Position numbers and translations under genes: made by a program. The notes beneath the pieces are model-generated. The model saw only the letters and a program-made list of their open reading frames with translations. It was not told the DNA's origin and made no database searches. Of a DNA stretch of 50,603 nucleotides, positions 25,095 through 34,751 are shown in pieces. Origin of the DNA: Bacillota bacterium (GTDB taxonomy: Bacteria > Actinomycetota > Aquicultoria > Aquicultorales > Aquicultoraceae); assembly GCA_023511485.1 (NCBI GenBank), contig JAIMBH010000017.1, positions 1-50,603 on the forward strand. The letters are read 5' to 3'. The first letter of the stretch is position 1. Each line of letters opens with the position of its first letter.

Positions 25095-26054
25095 ATGCAA
25101 GTTTTGGTGACCGGGGACGTGCTTGTCGATAAAGTGGTGCGCGAGTTCGAAGAACACGATATAGCTGTTATAAAGAAGCCTGCTACTCTTAACGAAAACG
25201 AGCTAATAGAGGCCGTAAAGAACGTTGACGGATATATTCTTGGAGGGAACGAAAAAGTAACGGGAAGAGTCGTTGATGCCGCCAATAAGTTGAGAATAAT
25301 AGTTTTCTGGGGTGCCCAGCCGAGCACTTTTTTTACTTCTGATGCCATGGATAAGATGAAGAAGCGCGGTATCGCCCTTGAGACGACTGGCTCGTCTGTA
25401 AATGCCGTTGCCGAGATGACTGTATTTTTGATTGGGGCTGCGATACGAAATATTCCCTATCTTGTTGGGGAAGTTTACAAGGGTAATTGGAGTGAGATGA
25501 AAGGAAGTGAAGTTAAAGGCAAGACTGTTGGGATTGTAGGGCTGGGTAAGATAGGGCAAACCGTTGCAAAGAAGCTCTTAGGACTTGAGTTAAAAGAGAT
25601 CTTGTATTATGATGTGCGCCGTAACGAGGATGCTGAGAAAGAACTCGGTGTAAGATTTAGCGATTTGCAAGAGCTCCTGCAAAAAAGCGACATTGTAAGC
25701 CTGCATTTGCCTTTACTTCCGCAAACACAGGGCATGATAGGAAAGGAGCAGCTTAGCCTAATGAAACCGACGGCAGTATTGGTCAACACCGCAAGACCTC
25801 AGCTTGTAGATGGAGAGGCCCTTTACGAGGCGTTAAACAAGGGTATTATTGCTAAAGCTATCTTCGATGGTTACTATGTTGAAGGTGCCGATTATTCACT
25901 CGGTGCAGCTGGAAAACTCGTTACGCTTCCTATCACTAAGTTCTGGTTTACACCGCATGTCGCATTTAATACGCACGAAAATGATATCGAACAGAGCGAA
26001 ACCGCTTTTAATTTGATGATCCAAGTTTTAAGTGAGCAGTCTTCTGTTGCATAA
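25095..26054 (+). CDS. D-isomer-specific 2-hydroxyacid dehydrogenase
   Basis: A 319-aa NAD(P)-dependent dehydrogenase for a 2-keto or 2-hydroxy acid. The Rossmann motif is VGIVGLGKIGQTVAKKLLG (about 143-161), the catalytic Arg lies in LVNTARPQLVDGEAL and the catalytic His in WFTPHVAFNT. The usual NTARG is NTARP, and the segment around the acidic partner (FDGYYVEGADY) differs from the usual VxxxEP, so the substrate may be unusual. ATG 25095 has AGGGGGT ahead. The redoxin gene starts 16 bp later and is probably cotranscribed. Confidence 0.88.
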   Translation: MQVLVTGDVLVDKVVREFEEHDIAVIKKPATLNENELIEAVKNVDGYILGGNEKVTGRVVDAANKLRIIVFWGAQPSTFFTSDAMDKMKKRGIALETTGSSVNAVAEMTVFLIGAAIRNIPYLVGEVYKGNWSEMKGSEVKGKTVGIVGLGKIGQTVAKKLLGLELKEILYYDVRRNEDAEKELGVRFSDLQELLQKSDIVSLHLPLLPQTQGMIGKEQLSLMKPTAVLVNTARPQLVDGEALYEALNKGIIAKAIFDGYYVEGADYSLGAAGKLVTLPITKFWFTPHVAFNTHENDIEQSETAFNLMIQVLSEQSSVA

Positions 26055-26070
26055 ATGGAGTGATGGCCTG

Positions 26071-26559
26071 ATGGTGCAGCTAAAAGAAAAGATAAGAATA
26101 GATGCAATTATTCCCTTTTTCGATCTCCCCTCAAACAAGGGGAAAAATATAAGGCCTTGGGATTACAAGCAGCGCAAACACCTTGTAGTCTATTTTTTTG
26201 GAGGAGCTGATTGCGTTGAGTGCAGGAATACCTTAAGGCAGTTTGCCGAGCATTATACCAACTATCGGCAGCTAAATGCCGAGGTGCTTGCTATAGGAAG
26301 GGATAATCTGGACAATCTATCCAGGCTTGCAGACAGCCTTAGCTTGCCGTTCCCGGTTCTTTCTGATAAAAACGGTGAGGTAACCAATGCATATACCTAT
26401 ATCAATCCAAAAACAAGTATGCCTTACCCATCCATTTTTGTGGCGGATAAATTTGGCTCTCTTGAAGAGGAGTGGATTGTAGAATCGGAGTATGAGCTTC
26501 CCACGCAAGACGAAATACTGTCAGTTTTGCAACTATTTGAGCTCAGATGTCCTGAGTGA
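26071..26559 (+). CDS. AhpC/TSA-like thioredoxin-fold protein
   Basis: A 162-aa peroxiredoxin-like protein with FFDLPSNKGK at the N-terminus, VVYFFGGADCVECRNTL (about 41-57) and PFPVLSDKNGEV (about 92-103). Instead of the peroxidatic TxxC it has a CxxC pair, C50 and C53, so it resembles redoxins or BCP-like proteins that work on disulfides or peroxides. ATG 26071 has GGAGTGA 8 nt ahead. It is directly downstream of the dehydrogenase. Confidence 0.75.
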   Translation: MVQLKEKIRIDAIIPFFDLPSNKGKNIRPWDYKQRKHLVVYFFGGADCVECRNTLRQFAEHYTNYRQLNAEVLAIGRDNLDNLSRLADSLSLPFPVLSDKNGEVTNAYTYINPKTSMPYPSIFVADKFGSLEEEWIVESEYELPTQDEILSVLQLFELRCPE

Positions 26560-27985: not shown

Positions 27986-28378
27986 CTAAAGATTCAATTT
28001 ATCCCTAAGCTTGATAATCTCTTCAACTTCATCGTTGGTTTTAAGCTTCAACAGGTGCCGCAAGACAGGCGTATTGGAGCCACCCAGCACTTTATCTACA
28101 ACGCTATCTATAATTAGTTTAGCTACCTTATCTCTACCTAAGGCTGGGCTGTAGATATAAGCTTTATCGTTTCTATTCTGCTTCAATAAACCTTTCTGTG
28201 CGAGGTTGTTCATAGCCGCCATAACGGTCGTATAAGGGATGTAGCCTCTCTTTAGACGCTCTTCATGAACTTCCCGCACTGTTACCTTCTTTTTTTGCCA
28301 AATTACCTGCATGATATCTGCTTCTAGAGTACTGAGGCCACTGATATCGATTTTACGTTTGCGATATTTCTTCTCCAT
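27986..28378 (-). CDS. BlaI/MecI-family repressor, copy 1
   Basis: A 130-aa winged-helix repressor. The DNA-binding domain (about 12-80) has STLEADIMQVIWQKKKVTV and YTTVMAAMNNLAQKGLLKQN; the C-terminal helices form the dimer. In BlaI/MecI systems the repressor is cut by an M56 membrane protease. Most positions from residue 14 to 115 match the second BlaI-like gene at 31246-31656, so they arose by duplication. AGGGGAGG precedes ATG 28378. It lies downstream of the radical SAM gene in the same direction, with a promoter of its own in between. Confidence 0.93.
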   Translation of the reverse strand: MEKKYRKRKIDISGLSTLEADIMQVIWQKKKVTVREVHEERLKRGYIPYTTVMAAMNNLAQKGLLKQNRNDKAYIYSPALGRDKVAKLIIDSVVDKVLGGSNTPVLRHLLKLKTNDEVEEIIKLRDKLNL

Positions 28379-28607: not shown

Positions 28608-29975
28608 TTAGGCGCAGGCTTTTTTGGCTAAATCATTTTTTATGTAATCAAGATAGGCGAGTATAACTTCCCGCGCCCTGCCGCATACTGGCTTGTTAAT
28701 GTCACTATTTACCGAAAGAGCTGAGTACGCACAGCCGCCGCCGCAAAGCAGAGCTATATTACACTGCCTGCACTTTTTCATTGTAAGTACGCTTCGCCTG
28801 CTCCACATATCAATTGCTTTGTCGTATACCTTAAGGGTCGGTCGAAATTTACCAATTGCAAATTTTCTACCACTTCCCATGACTTCTGTGCATGCATAGA
28901 TATAGCCATCAGGCCCAAAGACGATATTCTCAAGGTTATCTGCTTCACAGTAATGGAATAATGGCTGTATTGGTTTTCCGCTAGAAAGTACCGATCTGAT
29001 ATGAGCAATAGTTCTGAACATGTTCAGGTGAAAAACCTTCTCAAAACCTGGATTCTTTTTAAACAGGTCAAATATCTTGCTTACCAGTTCGTCCTCAGGC
29101 AGGAGATAGCCATATTTATTTTCCTGCGCATGGTCCTGGATGGGGGAAAGATTACATGTAATGTTGGGCTTTGCTAGCCAGCCGTTAATTTGCATATGCG
29201 TAAATAGCTGTGGAATTGTATTTATGTTTTGAAGGTCAACGTTAATTCTTATTGTTGTCTCTATGCCCATATCAAGGAGGTCACTTATTGACCGATTAAC
29301 AGCTTCAAAAGTCCCCCTGCCACTTGCCGACTTCCGGCGCTTATCATGTACTTCCTGGGGCCCATCTAGCGTAACCTGTATCGAATGGATTATATCTTTA
29401 TTTGCGCTTAAGATATCGGTGAACTTATCTAAGTGGACCCCATTTGTAACGATGCTTAACAATAGCGATCTTTCTCTGGTTTTCTCAAAAACTTTTTTAA
29501 CGAGCGGTTTTGTTTTTGGCAGCAGCGGTTCTCCTCCAAAGAGCTCAACTGTGCATTTGCGCTTTGGGTATGCACTCATAAACCTATCGATAGCAGAGAA
29601 TGTATGATCGATATCCTCGATTCTCATGAAGGCGCTGTGGTCACGGGTAAGTTCGCCCTCAAAACAGTAAGTACACCTTAAGTTACAGCTGTACGTGGGG
29701 CAGATAACAAAGAGAAACTGCCTCTTTGAATCGGCAAATTTGCTAACTATATACTGCAAGCGTGCCTCTTCTGCGGCATCGCTTTCAACAAGGTAGCCCC
29801 TCTTTTCAAGCCGATCGATTGTTGAGTTATCTATTCTAACATGAATCGGTTCATGCGCTTGTAGAAAGCGGTAGACCCGTGGGTCCACGATGTCTACCGC
29901 CCCAGTTAGTGCGTTGATCAGCAGAACCGATTCTTCAGATATTTGGTATGACAAAACATATTTACTAGTCTTCAC
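28608..29975 (-). CDS. Radical SAM/SPASM peptide maturase
   Basis: A 455-aa radical SAM enzyme. The N-terminal 90 residues (with LINALTGAVDIVDPRVYRFL) look like the small leader-binding region found in RiPP maturases. The SAM cluster motif is CNLRCTYC (C97, C101, C104), followed by ELFGGEPLL. The C-terminal SPASM domain has CRQCNIALLCGGGC (C-x2-C-x5-C-x3-C), plus an earlier and a later cysteine, so it should hold two extra Fe-S clusters. It would install a thioether, C-C or similar crosslink on a peptide. It starts at GTG 29975, only 15 bp after the small peptide gene, which is its obvious substrate. Confidence 0.92.
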   Translation of the reverse strand: MKTSKYVLSYQISEESVLLINALTGAVDIVDPRVYRFLQAHEPIHVRIDNSTIDRLEKRGYLVESDAAEEARLQYIVSKFADSKRQFLFVICPTYSCNLRCTYCFEGELTRDHSAFMRIEDIDHTFSAIDRFMSAYPKRKCTVELFGGEPLLPKTKPLVKKVFEKTRERSLLLSIVTNGVHLDKFTDILSANKDIIHSIQVTLDGPQEVHDKRRKSASGRGTFEAVNRSISDLLDMGIETTIRINVDLQNINTIPQLFTHMQINGWLAKPNITCNLSPIQDHAQENKYGYLLPEDELVSKIFDLFKKNPGFEKVFHLNMFRTIAHIRSVLSSGKPIQPLFHYCEADNLENIVFGPDGYIYACTEVMGSGRKFAIGKFRPTLKVYDKAIDMWSRRSVLTMKKCRQCNIALLCGGGCAYSALSVNSDINKPVCGRAREVILAYLDYIKNDLAKKACA

Positions 29976-29990
29976 TTTATCTCACTCTTT

Positions 29991-30098
29991 TTACCATTCC
30001 CAGCATGCCAACCAGAAGCAGCACGAGGCGTTATCTGCCAGGTCTTCTTTTTGGTCGACTACATCCCAGAGCATGTTATCTTCGATAAGAGATTTCAC
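29991..30098 (-). CDS. Candidate RiPP precursor peptide (35 aa)
   Basis: A 35-codon gene between the M56 peptidase and the radical SAM maturase. It starts at GTG 30098, with AGGAGGTGAT 9 nt upstream, which is the best ribosome site in the operon. Residues 1-25 are a polar, acidic leader (Glu6, Asp7, Asp12, Asp15, Glu18, Asp19, Asp22). The C-terminus is CCFWLACWEW, with Cys26, Cys27, Cys32 and Trp29, Trp33, Trp35. That composition, the position and the 15-bp spacing to the maturase are typical of precursor peptides changed by radical SAM/SPASM enzymes. The mature form is unknown. I do not recognise a named family. Confidence 0.8.
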   Translation of the reverse strand: MKSLIEDNMLWDVVDQKEDLADNASCCFWLACWEW

Positions 30099-30143
30099 GC
30101 GCCATCACCTCCTAAAACTCAGTACAATGGCAGAATGAAATGA

Positions 30144-31223
30144 TTAATGAAGGATTATGATAAGGTTGCCCTTGAAGACGAACCCTAAAACCGGGTGGAT
30201 AAAGAGAATTGCTATAGCGGCGAATGCTATTAAAAAGCCCTTTAATAAGCGAAGTGGCAAAAACGAGCATCTATCTGCCTTTTGCTCGGTAATTGAATCT
30301 ACCCTTCGCTTAAGTACAGAATGGCGATATAGAAATCCTTTTGCAAGGGCGGGATAAAGTACTTTTTGCGTTGATTCGATGTTTCTGCGGAAAATCGCTA
30401 CATCCAATAGTGCGCCAGCAATTTTTACGGCAGGTAAGCCAGTCTTCTCAAGCGCTACTCTGTCACAAGCCATCTCTTTTTCTTCCTCGATCATGTGGTA
30501 TATCGGATAGACTATCGGATTGAAAAATAAAAGGTCTCTAAGTATGAGGGATATCCAGCCCGTTAGGTTATCGTAGCGCTTTATGTGTGCTAGCTCATGT
30601 GCTAGCATTATTTCAAGCTGCTCCTCCGAAAAACTGTCGATTAAAGCCTGCGATATTACAATTATCGGCATTTTATGGCCAATACTAAAGGGGACAAAGT
30701 GGTATTTTGTAGTAACTACTAATTCAGGCTGCTTGACCTTGAGCTTATCGGCCAACCTGTTAAGTATTGCGTAAATTTGAGGATAATCGTCCCTGCTAAG
30801 GCGCGTTTCTTTCTTAAACGAGCTTAGGAAACAGAATAGCTGTACCCACCGCGCTACCATGATAAGGACAACTGAGACCGTAGCTAGCAATAACCCTATT
30901 TTAATAACCGAATACTCGACCGTAAAAGATTGGGGAGGGTCAAAGTATTTTAAGGTGTTATCTCGTAGATTAATCAGCCCCAATGGGTCATCAAATCTGA
31001 GTGAGAGTATAAATCGTTTAAAAGTTATGCTCGGATGCCAGGATCCGCCTTCCGTAAAAGCAATCTGCGCTTTTATTAACGGCAAGAAAAGGAAAACAAA
31101 TCTTATGGCATGATCTTTTATCCTAAAAAGCTTTAGGATTGTAAGCACTAACAAAAGCGTTACCGCCGCCTCGATAATCGACGGTACAACCTTATCAAGT
31201 AAAATTGATTGCGGTAGGGGCAC
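30144..31223 (-). CDS. M56-family membrane metallopeptidase (BlaR1-like, no sensor domain)
   Basis: A 359-aa integral membrane zinc protease related to BlaR1/MecR1. Transmembrane segments lie near 10-30, 40-58, 105-128 and 325-350. The zinc motif is HELAH (His209-His213), followed by EEEKEMACDRVALE with the third ligand. The C-terminal penicillin-binding sensor domain of BlaR1 is absent, so the signal is not beta-lactam through that domain. It starts at GTG 31223 with AAAGGG ahead. It lies between a BlaI-like gene (22-bp gap) and the peptide gene (45-bp gap). It may cleave the repressors, the precursor leader, or both. Confidence 0.9.
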   Translation of the reverse strand: MPLPQSILLDKVVPSIIEAAVTLLLVLTILKLFRIKDHAIRFVFLFLPLIKAQIAFTEGGSWHPSITFKRFILSLRFDDPLGLINLRDNTLKYFDPPQSFTVEYSVIKIGLLLATVSVVLIMVARWVQLFCFLSSFKKETRLSRDDYPQIYAILNRLADKLKVKQPELVVTTKYHFVPFSIGHKMPIIVISQALIDSFSEEQLEIMLAHELAHIKRYDNLTGWISLILRDLLFFNPIVYPIYHMIEEEKEMACDRVALEKTGLPAVKIAGALLDVAIFRRNIESTQKVLYPALAKGFLYRHSVLKRRVDSITEQKADRCSFLPLRLLKGFLIAFAAIAILFIHPVLGFVFKGNLIIILH

Positions 31224-31245
31224 AGAAAAACCCTTTGCCTGTTAT

Positions 31246-31656
31246 TTACCTATTATCGTTTAGCTTTTTTTTCATTTCCAACAGCTTTTCCACATCTTCT
31301 TCTTTCTTTAACTTAAGGAGATGGGAAACAAGCGGTGTTGCGACGCCGCCAAGGATCTTGTTTACAACAGAATCCACAATACTCTTTGCCATTGCATCTC
31401 TGCTAACAGCCGCTGAATAAATATAGGCTTTGCCATCTCTATTTTGCTTAAGGAGACCTTTTTGGGCCATGTTGTTCATAGCCGCCATGACGGTTGTGTA
31501 AGGAATATATCCCTCCTCAAGCATAGTTTCATGAACCTCACGGACTGTTATTTTCTTGTGCTGCCACACGATGTTCATAATGTCGGCCTCAAGCGTACTT
31601 AGGCCATTGATTCCAAGTTTCTTGGATCTCTTTCTTGTTAAAGGTTGTCTTTCCAC
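31246..31656 (-). CDS. BlaI/MecI-family repressor, copy 2
   Basis: A 136-aa winged-helix repressor that closely matches copy 1, including STLEADIMNIVWQHKKITV and YTTVMAAMNNMAQKGLLKQN. It starts at GTG 31656 with GAGGAG 6 nt ahead. It is the first gene of the M56/peptide/maturase unit, as blaI often stands beside blaR1. A promoter with an inverted repeat that suits BlaI binding lies just upstream, so it probably represses its own operon. The conserved basic N-terminus (RKRSKK) is longer than in copy 1. Confidence 0.93.
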   Translation of the reverse strand: MERQPLTRKRSKKLGINGLSTLEADIMNIVWQHKKITVREVHETMLEEGYIPYTTVMAAMNNMAQKGLLKQNRDGKAYIYSAAVSRDAMAKSIVDSVVNKILGGVATPLVSHLLKLKKEEDVEKLLEMKKKLNDNR

Positions 31657-31679: not shown

Positions 31680-31720
31680 TTTACTTGTAAAAGTTTATAT
31701 ATTAAATACTTAATAGTCAA
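31680..31720 (-). promoter_or_regulatory. Promoter and BlaI-type operator of the peptide operon
   Basis: On the minus strand TTGACT (31715-31720) and TAAACT (31692-31697) are 17 bp apart. The inverted repeat TTTAC-N2-GTAAA (31680-31691) follows the -10 directly, at the start site. It resembles the TACA-N2-TGTA core of BlaI/MecI operators. A second repeat, ATTAA-N4-TTAAT, lies in the spacer (31701-31714). Confidence 0.6.
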
Positions 31721-31981: not shown

Positions 31982-32010
31982 TTTGTTATTGCTATCTGGC
32001 AATGTACTAT
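31982..32010 (+). promoter_or_regulatory. Probable promoter of the ferritin-like gene
   Basis: TTTGTT (31982-31987) and TACTAT (32005-32010) are 17 bp apart; TTGC-N6-GCAA lies in the spacer. Confidence 0.4.
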
Positions 32011-32069
32011 GCGGATGGGTACAATGTGGATTACGGTCATTAAGAAAACCATTCTCAAAGGAGGGTGCT

Positions 32070-32270
32070 TTGGCTTTAGACTTAAAGAAACTCATTGAAA
32101 ATGCAATTAAAGAAGAGCAGGAAGCTCAAAAGAATTACCAGAAGGCTGCAGATGAAGCTTTGGATCTGGAGACGAAGACTTTTTTTGAGCAGTTAGTGAG
32201 AGAAGAAATGGCTCACGAGAAGCGTCTTAAAGATAGGTTGATAGCGATTAAGCTAATCCAGGGTGATTAG
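32070..32270 (+). CDS. Short ferritin-like (rubrerythrin-type) protein
   Basis: A 66-aa two-helix protein with half of a rubrerythrin-type diiron site: EEQEAQKNYQKAADEA and EEMAHEKRL (E-x2-H). Two chains would have to pair to make a full four-helix bundle. It starts at TTG 32070, with AGGAGG 7-8 nt ahead; the frame is open much further upstream, but that part has no homology. It probably takes part in peroxide or iron handling, like the rubrerythrin 1.4 kb away. Its stop overlaps the stop of the convergent gene by 3-4 bp. Confidence 0.75.
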   Translation: MALDLKKLIENAIKEEQEAQKNYQKAADEALDLETKTFFEQLVREEMAHEKRLKDRLIAIKLIQGD

Positions 32271-33583
32271 GTATGGGTTTTTAAGGTTACCGTTACCATA
32301 AGCAAAATGGCGACGACGGTACTAAGTCCAGATAAGAGAAGGCCCACGCTTGCCTTCTCTTTTCGCATTAGTTTTGCTGCATAATGCGTAAAAATTACGA
32401 CTGAGGCCGCAAAGAAAACATCGATTCCAAGGCGCGCCGGTATTGGTATATGTTCAAAGACCTCCTTAGTGGCAAGGAGCTCCCATGCTTCAAGTGTGTA
32501 GAACCAGACAACAAAGAGTTCAATAAATCCAGCTGCTGTTTGAACCGATACACCCTCTTTCTGCAGTAGTACGCTTTCTCGGCTTCGCTCAAGGTCAATT
32601 CGGGTCCTTACCACATCAATTGCCGCCCGCGTGTCGTCTAGGGAGCGGTGAAGCAGTTTGGCGTCAAGATTCAGGCTCTGCAGCATGTCCTTATGCTTGC
32701 CCAGGAGGGAATCATTTAAATAGCCAAGCCCGACTCCAGTCTCGTTATTTTTGAATAGATGCTCCAGCTTGTCTATATCCCTTGCCACGGTGTTTTGTGA
32801 GTTTTTTATGAGCTTCTGACACCCCATTAACTCGCTATACATGTTAGAGAGGTTCTCGATATCTTTCTCTAGTAGTTCGATTCTGTTCTCGGGTGAGGAT
32901 ACTGTGTTTGACCATTTGTTAAGGATATCGCTTAACCTCCGATCAAATTCTTCTTTTTTTGCGTTAACGAAGCTACGCTGATCTTTAAAATAGGTCTCCT
33001 GCCTTTGAAGTTTAAACAGTAGTGCTTCGATGGAAGGAAGTTTTTTTGTCAATAGGCTGGCTGCAAGGATGCCGCTTTTTGGAAATGCAGTATAATATCG
33101 ATGCCAGATATTATCTGAGTGGATATTGCTAAATAGCACCCCTTTGATTTCGTATTCGCCGAGTTTTGTGCCAGTAAACGGCCCACTCATGCTGCCTGGG
33201 AGTATATCATGGCCATCGGGATTGCCGATGATACTAACAGTGGTTTCTCCTATTATATAGTCTGCCTTGTTTTGCAGGTTCTGTTTGGCATCAGCCAGCT
33301 CCCTAATTATCTCGGCCGTTGGTTTTAGGTCTGTAAGGTAAAGGATCTCAAGGGCCGTTATACTTCTCAAGACTAAAAGACCGATAGCCACCTGCGAATT
33401 TTTAAGAAGGAAAGGTGCGCTATGGGTGAGTTTCTTATCTAAGGGTTGATCCAGAATAGGGTTTGTATCTTTAAGGCCGTATTTATGAACAAGTCTACTC
33501 CATATGCTTTTAATTACATCGTAATCCTCGCTCGGAACATATATATAGTGAGCCAGTTTTATGTTGTAGATCTCATGCTCCAT
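32267..33583 (-). CDS. Hypothetical coiled-coil membrane protein
   Basis: A 438-aa protein I do not recognise. Residues 1-195 look like a soluble globular domain. Residues 200-350 are helical and heptad-like, with many Glu, Lys and Leu. Residues 355-438 contain two or three hydrophobic helices (about 358-378, 388-405, 415-432), so it is anchored at the C-terminus, with a large domain probably in the cytoplasm. The layout recalls CorA- or RMD1-like proteins, but no family motif is seen. Its stop overlaps the stop of the convergent ferritin-like gene. Confidence 0.65.
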   Translation of the reverse strand: MEHEIYNIKLAHYIYVPSEDYDVIKSIWSRLVHKYGLKDTNPILDQPLDKKLTHSAPFLLKNSQVAIGLLVLRSITALEILYLTDLKPTAEIIRELADAKQNLQNKADYIIGETTVSIIGNPDGHDILPGSMSGPFTGTKLGEYEIKGVLFSNIHSDNIWHRYYTAFPKSGILAASLLTKKLPSIEALLFKLQRQETYFKDQRSFVNAKKEEFDRRLSDILNKWSNTVSSPENRIELLEKDIENLSNMYSELMGCQKLIKNSQNTVARDIDKLEHLFKNNETGVGLGYLNDSLLGKHKDMLQSLNLDAKLLHRSLDDTRAAIDVVRTRIDLERSRESVLLQKEGVSVQTAAGFIELFVVWFYTLEAWELLATKEVFEHIPIPARLGIDVFFAASVVIFTHYAAKLMRKEKASVGLLLSGLSTVVAILLMVTVTLKTHT

Positions 33584-33658: not shown

Positions 33659-34180
33659 TTAGTAGTTCTCACAAAATAGTTCATAATAAGCCTGCGGATG
33701 GTCGCATGCCGGACAGGTAAGAGGAGCCTCCATACCCTCGTAGATATAGCCGCAATTGCGGCATTTCCACCTTACTTTGCTCGTCTTCTTGAAGACAGTG
33801 CCGCTTTCAAGGTTGTTTAGAAGTGCTTTGTAGCGTTTCTCGTGTTCTGCCTCAACTTTTGCAACTTCTTTAAAGAAGTCGGCAATCTCAAGATAGCCTT
33901 CTTCCCGCGCCACTTTTTCAAATTCTGGATACATGCTGGTGTGTTCGTAGTTCTCGCCTTCGATTGCTGTCTTTAAATTTGCCCGGGTGTCTCCAAGAGC
34001 TTTTAGAAACTTAAAAGCTCTTTTGGCATGCTCCTTTTCATTTTCGGCAGTCTCTTCAAAAACTGCAGCTATTTGCTCGTATCCCTCTTTTTTTGCTACT
34101 TTGGCAAAGTAATTGTACTTGTTTCGGGCCTGGGATTCGCCAGCAAATGCTTTCCAGAGATTTTCCTCAGTTCTATCCAT
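33659..34180 (-). CDS. Rubrerythrin
   Basis: A 173-aa classical rubrerythrin, a peroxide reductase of anaerobes. The four-helix diiron domain (1-135) shows ENLWKAFAGESQARNKYNYF, EETAENEKEHAKRAF and EVAKVEAEHEKRY with the Glu/His ligands. The C-terminal rubredoxin-like domain has WKCRNCGYIYEG and PLTCPACDHP (two CxxC pairs) for an Fe(SCys)4 site. AAAGGAGGAG precedes ATG 34180. The Fur/PerR-type gene lies about 170 bp upstream in the same direction and probably controls it. Confidence 0.96.
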   Translation of the reverse strand: MDRTEENLWKAFAGESQARNKYNYFAKVAKKEGYEQIAAVFEETAENEKEHAKRAFKFLKALGDTRANLKTAIEGENYEHTSMYPEFEKVAREEGYLEIADFFKEVAKVEAEHEKRYKALLNNLESGTVFKKTSKVRWKCRNCGYIYEGMEAPLTCPACDHPQAYYELFCENY

Positions 34181-34352
34181 TGTCTCCTCCTTTGAGCTTA
34201 TTCGTAAAGTAAATAAGCAATCAAAACTAAAAATATAGGCTGTAAAAGTAATGCAGGGTTTAAGCCCATAGCGCGTAATGCGGGGCTTTAGCTTTGCATA
34301 GTAGCCCTAAAGGGCTGTACTAAGGTTTCCAATTTAGTATTTTCAATTTTAA

Positions 34353-34751
34353 TCAGCGCTTACGGTTGTTGAGACAGTCAGCGCATATCCCGATAAGGTT
34401 TAGCCGATGCCCCGCGACTTTGCCTCTTACATACTTGCTTAGCTTTTGCTCAATACCTTCGATTACAGGGGCATTGATGTCCATTACCGTATTGCAAGAG
34501 CTGCATATGAAGTGATAATGGTTGGTTGGGTTACCATCAAACCTTGAATAGCCCTGACCAGCATCAATCTCAAGCAGCATGCCCTGTTCTTTAAGAAAGT
34601 TCAGCGTTCTATACACCGTAGCAAAGCTTATCTGTGGAAGCTTGCCTTTTACAGCCTTGTAAACCGTGGCTGCAGCAGGGTGGCTGTCCGTGCTTTTCAG
34701 ATAATCCAATATGACTCTGCGTTGATTGGTCATTCTAAAATAAGTTGCCAT
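34353..34751 (-). CDS. Fur-family regulator (PerR-like)
   Basis: A 132-aa metalloregulator with the winged helix FATVYRTLNFLKEQGMLLEI (about 43-62), the metal-site HYHFICSSCNTVMDI (His-x-His and CxxC) and C-terminal ICADCLNN (CxxC). The two CxxC pairs make a structural zinc site. Next to rubrerythrin genes a PerR (peroxide) role is more likely than iron uptake, but Asp104-type PerR markers cannot be settled by eye. There is no ribosome site before ATG 34751. A large dyad with Fur/PerR-like half-sites lies just upstream. Confidence 0.9.
   Translation of the reverse strand: MATYFRMTNQRRVILDYLKSTDSHPAAATVYKAVKGKLPQISFATVYRTLNFLKEQGMLLEIDAGQGYSRFDGNPTNHYHFICSSCNTVMDINAPVIEGIEQKLSKYVRGKVAGHRLNLIGICADCLNNRKR

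Follow-up and report, generated by a model that had tools for sequence, protein, structure and literature searches.

A compact minus-strand operon in a 50,603-nt stretch of Bacillota bacterium (GCA_023511485.1, contig JAIMBH010000017.1; hereafter the window, to which all coordinates refer) carries a 35-codon open reading frame (ORF) next to a radical S-adenosylmethionine (SAM)/SPASM gene. Judged from their conservation, the two genes are a precursor/maturase pair of the ribosomally synthesized and post-translationally modified peptide (RiPP) type, with an M56 membrane metallopeptidase as a near-constant third partner. We lean towards reading the whole as a new radical SAM RiPP subfamily, in which the M56 protease would process the precursor and relieve repression by BlaI. 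Along the minus strand, the order is blaI, M56 peptidase, 35-codon ORF, radical SAM/SPASM gene and second blaI, with intergenic gaps of 22, 45, 15 and then 229 bp. The ORFs, their order, the first three gaps and the second blaI had all been given in an initial annotation, which the ORF read-out and, for the large genes, Pfam matched exactly. The features are as follows:

31693..31720, minus strand: operon promoter, with TTGACT at 31720-31715 and the operator-like dyad GTATTTAATATATAAAC at 31693-31709, which overlaps the -10 region
31246..31656, minus strand: blaI-like repressor 1, 136 aa (PF03965, 6.6e-27)
30144..31223, minus strand: M56 membrane metallopeptidase, 359 aa (PF05569, 4.7e-26), with a HELAH zinc motif at residues 209-213
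30104..30113, minus strand: Shine-Dalgarno sequence of the peptide gene, AGGAGGTGAT, seen in the sequence 5 nt before the GTG start
29991..30098, minus strand: putative RiPP precursor gene, MKSLIEDNMLWDVVDQKEDLADNASCCFWLACWEW, 35 codons with a GTG start; family conserved at 31 non-duplicate loci
30024..30098, minus strand: predicted leader, codons 1-25 (SL..., LW motif), boundary inferred; W11 invariant in the A5 alignment
29994..30023, minus strand: predicted core, codons 26-35, CCFWLACWEW, boundary inferred; C26, C27 and C32 invariant in 27 sequences
28608..29975, minus strand: radical SAM/SPASM peptide maturase, 455 aa (PF04055, 2.3e-13), with invariant cysteines
29721..29975, minus strand: RRE-like (RiPP recognition element-like) N-terminal domain of the maturase, about residues 1-85, from the secondary structure of the model; the CteB alignment covers the domain
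27986..28378, minus strand: blaI-like repressor 2, 130 aa (PF03965, 4.4e-25), 229 bp beyond the maturase

The small ORF is almost certainly a real gene and one half of a RiPP precursor/maturase pair. A 17-row peptide profile (A1) matched the window ORF and 18 other genomes of its class, which is that of Candidatus Aquicultor (Candidatus Aquicultoria, Actinomycetota), at 1e-8 to 1e-16, so that 19 of the 36 class genomes, counting the window's own, carry the peptide. Furthermore, comparison of the window with genome G002 gave a dN of 0.31 and a dS of 1.23, indicating purifying constraint. Since the profile recovers relatives in the 18 other genomes and the peptide is constrained, the ORF is not a product of chance. 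The stretch between M56 and the maturase might be suspected of being open by chance, given that short ORFs are common and that an NCBIfam search of ten precursors assigned no family, but the peptide has its own ribosome-binding site and homologues across phyla in which W11, C26, C27 and C32 do not vary; together with the profile matches in class genomes, these observations refute that reading, whose probability we consider negligible. Small ORFs read around homologous maturases yielded one shared peptide family, and a conserved small ORF lies beside such maturases across phyla, the peptide itself being found at 31 non-duplicate loci. The initial annotation had made its proposal of a RiPP-type pairing depend on this outcome, which supports the pairing.

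An alignment of 27 peptides showed that M1, W11, C26, C27 and C32 (window numbering) are invariant. The leader follows approximately the pattern M-K-S-L-N-x(2-5)-L-W and the core follows C-C-[WF]-x(1-5)-C, with length and sequence variable beyond CC..C, giving the overall signature M-x-S-L-N...LW...CC[WF]...C[WY]. The window's genome contains a single match to the peptide profile and is thus without an alternative precursor of the same type.

Homologous maturases were sought in 99 relatives and found in 18, including all 10 other genomes of the window's family, in which the cluster is present in all 11 genomes, usually as a single copy. Each of the 18 maturase-bearing class relatives has the peptide or, in one case (G005), has lost it at a contig end beside M56. 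The one further class genome in which the peptide was detected, G034, is 74% complete, and its contig starts within M56. A phylum-wide search added 6 genomes in two other Actinomycetota families. Whereas a single-sequence scan of GTDB genome contigs returned no relative, an alignment-based scan found the four-gene set in one Chloroflexota genome, one Aerophobetes genome and one 'Bacillota' metagenome-assembled genome, an additional relative of which also carries it. Only 1 of 400 sampled Chloroflexota genomes was positive, and the distribution beyond Actinomycetota therefore looks sporadic. A tblastn search for plasmid carriage gave only general radical SAM proteins, all matching at under 60% identity and the best at about 31%. 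We also observed two tandem BlaI-M56-maturase clusters on an Armatimonadetes contig (JAFAZD010000348.1; L092, 3671-5335, and L110, 3644-5584), where CCWNICPAW and CCWNVCGSW are encoded in a frame open into the maturase N-terminus and L110 has no ATG at the maturase start. A precursor-maturase fusion is likely at these loci, although unproven because G+C-rich frames readily stay open.

The maturase has the anatomy of a peptide-modifying radical SAM enzyme, with invariant cysteines in the AdoMet motif (C97-x3-C101-x2-C104) and seven invariant SPASM cysteines (343, 362, 402, 405, 411, 415 and 431). Its AlphaFold model (predicted local distance difference test, pLDDT, 92) places three strands followed by three helices at the N-terminus, a predicted RRE layout that aligns with CteB, and CteB is the best match both by fold in the PDB (5WHY) and by sequence profile (5e-29). 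No NCBIfam model scored over its cut-off on this protein: the bit scores were 166 for CefB NF038107 (cut-off 600), 147 for TIGR04463 (525), 146 for Clo7bot (600), 114.5 for PapB NF047865 (340) and 91.5 for TIGR03974 (425). The other maturases of the clade that were scanned reached 107-153 bits against NF038107.

A tree of 55 maturases, 24 linked to M56 and 31 relatives without it, placed all 24 M56-linked sequences on one side of one branch (Shimodaira-Hasegawa-like approximate likelihood ratio test, 91), and M56 linkage required 1 change on this tree versus 18 with shuffled labels. The M56-linked maturases thus form one clade with one origin. Their neighbours on the tree are Bacillota maturases, several of which adjoin peptides that have the same leader but no CCW core, for example Paenibacillus MQMKSLTKDSDIWTNLSAKELKELPVPSACCAK and Lachnobacterium MKNLNENLWTEISVEEMETREEFCFWNTCFSCFCFTFNW, while a more distant maturase group adjoins MKSL...QCCAK...AGCHD peptides. 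Many related peptides have two adjacent cysteines close to the beginning of the core, and we infer that this pair is a likely site of the chemistry. At the Paenibacillus loci L086, L088, L090, L091, L094 and L095, related maturases occur in pairs, and the peptide between or beside them has the same KSLT...LWTNLS leader or is a longer, Cys-rich variant; of these enzymes, the ones listed first for L086, L088 and L095 were scanned and none exceeded a named NCBIfam cut-off. A second peptide family accompanies the distant maturases (L101, L105, L106, L111, L112, L117, L120, L124, L131, L139 and L142) in Bacteroidales, Spirochaetales and other hosts, mostly starting with a KSL leader and ending in CCAK or CCSK...[AS]GCHD or similar.

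It is M56, not BlaI, that constantly accompanies the peptide. At 29 of the 31 non-duplicate loci, the gene immediately upstream of the peptide on the same strand is M56, at a spacing of no more than 128 bp and with overlapping ORF limits in two; one exception is a contig break (L149), and in the other (L034) M56 is convergent and adjoins the maturase. BlaI is directly upstream of M56 at only 22 loci, clearly non-adjacent at 6 (L034, L035, L036, L038, L042 and L085, the last with none to the contig end) and unreadable at 3. The gene set with M56 and BlaI proposed initially thus stands for the protease and holds only in part for the repressor. No BlaI was found anywhere in G030, a genome 87% complete, and G015 and G026 encode BlaI elsewhere in the genome. 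Moreover, at four loci with a divergent maturase (L036, L037, L038 and L042) the peptide remains with M56, and searches made with the peptide alone in new genomes also ended up beside M56.

Residues H209, E210, H213, E250 and D254 of the M56 protein are invariant in 19 relatives. Its model (pLDDT 76) finds S. aureus BlaR1 as the best fold match and has four long helices, taken as membrane helices, at residues 3-32, 38-58, 104-137 and 322-341. The C-terminus extends about 15-20 residues past the last helix, and none is longer among the 19 aligned relatives, so the protein is without a penicillin-binding sensor domain. Close to a peptide-less BlaI-M56 pair at three other loci (L177, L178 and L040, in G000 contig 20, G023 and G016), we noted a CcdA-like membrane protein and ABC-transporter-like or metal-ATPase-like genes, names given by sequence reading rather than profiles; this arrangement may represent a second, separate role for sensor-less M56.

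BlaI probably represses this operon. In the promoter of the first blaI, a dyad near GTTTAACAAATAAAC lies over the -10 region and is conserved in the window's family; when its pattern was searched with one mismatch allowed, 8 genomes each contained a sole mismatch-free copy, always at the blaI promoter, and a ninth contained a copy with a single mismatch. This conservation is consistent with autoregulation. The promoter also has sigma-70-like hexamers, which are no commoner than in shuffles, and a classical TACA-type BlaI operator sought upstream of blaI in the family was not conserved. The second blaI follows the maturase in every family genome with a contig reaching that far.

In the mechanism we propose, the predicted N-terminal RRE of the maturase would bind the SLN...LW leader, while the AdoMet cluster and two auxiliary clusters would introduce cross-links into the CC[WF]...C core, with thioether or C-C bonds from Cys to a neighbouring residue as the likeliest type. 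The hydrophobic modified precursor would then reach the membrane-bound M56, whose cytosolic zinc site would cut near the conserved junction of [G/S][P/S/T]x with CC, and the small Trp/Cys macrocycle would enter the membrane without a dedicated exporter; no transporter, immunity or extra enzyme gene was found recurring in the neighbourhood. From the dyad spanning the -10 box, BlaI would keep the operon repressed, and cleavage of BlaI by this M56 would probably lift the repression. The maturase half of this scheme draws on the conservation of its parts and on what is established for radical SAM RiPPs, and the M56 half on a linkage of M56 to the peptide that is tighter than that of BlaI. We judge the odds slightly in favour of a direct action of M56 on the peptide and evenly balanced for cleavage of BlaI. 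A bolder version, in which one M56 is both RiPP maturation protease and BlaI antirepressor and the precursor or mature peptide either activates the protease or competes for it, so that the operon meters its own product, is a speculative proposal that we regard as doubtful.

Several observations weigh against this scheme. Close M56 relatives can be plain BlaI partners, as indicated by contig 8 of G305 (L176, 2497-4046), where a second BlaI-M56 pair of that genome, with such a protease, is encoded without peptide or maturase on a 7-kb contig; this pair opposes the M56 half. The residues preceding CC vary, being [N/D][A/T/V]S in the window's family and GPx in others, and the cleavage site is therefore a guess. 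The distance matrices of maturase and M56 correlate strongly (r=0.954, compared with 0.910 for M56 and BlaI; 16 loci, permutation p about 0.0005), but part of this correlation comes from shared descent, which alone can produce it. Finally, the putative operator is a sequence footprint only.

A rival reading has M56 acting as a signal transducer only, sensing an envelope signal or the finished peptide and cutting BlaI while general proteases, for example the nearby M42 aminopeptidase, remove the leader. BlaI-M56 is a known sensor module, adjacent in most of the loci, and the peptide-less pair in G305 belongs to the same clade; other such pairs, with distant M56s (G000 contig 20, G017 and G023), likewise occur without peptide or maturase. 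Nevertheless, this protease has no penicillin-binding protein or other sensor domain, it stays with the peptide or maturase at the six loci lacking an adjacent BlaI, no BlaI was seen in G030, and the M42 gene is a neighbour only inside the window's family, so we hold a pure transducer to be rather unlikely. The product itself could instead be an unsecreted intracellular cofactor or sensor for redox or metal binding, comparable to pyrroloquinoline quinone or mycofactocin. Its usually single copy in all 11 family genomes would be unusual for a patchily distributed bacteriocin, exporter and immunity genes do not recur, the Cys-Cys pair and third Cys could bind metal, and rubrerythrin, Fur-type and AhpC-type genes lie near the cluster in the window. 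We consider this improbable, as the core is variable outside CC..C in both length and sequence, which is unusual for a cofactor, no dedicated enzyme using the product was identified, and the stress genes are common only within the window's family. Less probable again is a membrane peptide with antimicrobial or self-directed action, with M56 serving in processing and immunity, an idea suggested by the short, Trp-rich hydrophobic core, by the membrane protease in the cluster and by the epipeptide system, for which the intramembrane M50 protease EpeP is sufficient for production (review PMC10885120); the lack of a transporter or immunity gene and the near-universal vertical presence in the family speak against it.

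The cluster is flanked in the window (31983-32270, 33659-34751 and 26032-26559) by genes for rubrerythrin, a Fur-type regulator, an AhpC-type peroxiredoxin and a small ferritin-like ORF, the last named by sequence reading. A rubrerythrin-like gene is also near the cluster in several family genomes (L027, L029-L033). M42 peptidase, M23 peptidase, LigD and rubrerythrin neighbours were dropped as synteny because they recur only inside the window's family. A further neighbour, at 32267-33583, encodes a protein of 438 aa that by eye is a coiled coil with membrane helices at its C-terminus; it gave nothing over cut-off in Pfam and no match in PHROG.

We read the cluster as a new subfamily of radical SAM RiPP, a kind already known in general outline. 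The initial annotation knew of no described RiPP class with these genes, and NCBIfam and the literature likewise yielded none with M56 and BlaI. A review of RiPP leader proteases covers the metalloprotease families M1, M16, M50, M61, M79 and M103 and never mentions M56 (PMC10885120). Full-text literature gave no relevant paper joining M56 with a radical SAM RiPP, although an unnamed bioinformatic cluster may exist in subscription papers, and none was found on BlaR1 with a precursor peptide or on Aquicultor with radical SAM. For Candidatus Aquicultoria and other Actinomycetota that are little cultured, and whose RiPPs are little known, the cluster would define a coherent subfamily that has a precursor signature and probably a protease of its own. 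It also offers a testable role for one branch of the sensor-less BlaR1-like M56 proteins, whose substrates and signals are mostly unknown, and direct reconstitution is within reach given the small size of its CC[WF]..C core. If the dual role of M56 were true, the protease would be the first of family M56 to act on a RiPP, and the cluster the first sensor-less module of BlaR1 type to be gated by an internal peptide.

Epipeptides are radical SAM-modified. Their clusters (EpeX, with the M50 protease EpeP; PMC10885120) resemble this one in combining a small modified peptide with a membrane metalloprotease, which is M50 there and M56 here. The BlaR1/MecR1-BlaI/MecI systems likewise have a BlaI-type repressor and an M56 protein of BlaR1-like fold in one operon; here, in contrast, there is no penicillin-binding sensor and no beta-lactamase, and a peptide and a radical SAM enzyme take their place. 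CteB/SCIFF (5WGG, 5WHY; TIGR03974), the best structure by profile and fold, has a SPASM domain and, by prediction, an RRE in common with the maturase, but the match is weak (91.5 bits versus 425) and the precursor here has few Cys among Trp, unlike the six-Cys SCIFF pattern. Closest among maturase models is CefA/CefB (NF038107), matched over its full length yet far under the cut-off (166 bits versus 600); these are related Bacillota maturases outside the M56-linked clade, some with peptides bearing the same MKSLN...LWT leader. CefA precursors have a Cys at every fifth residue, whereas the family described here has a CC[WF]x(1-5)C core and, in its cluster, M56 and BlaI.

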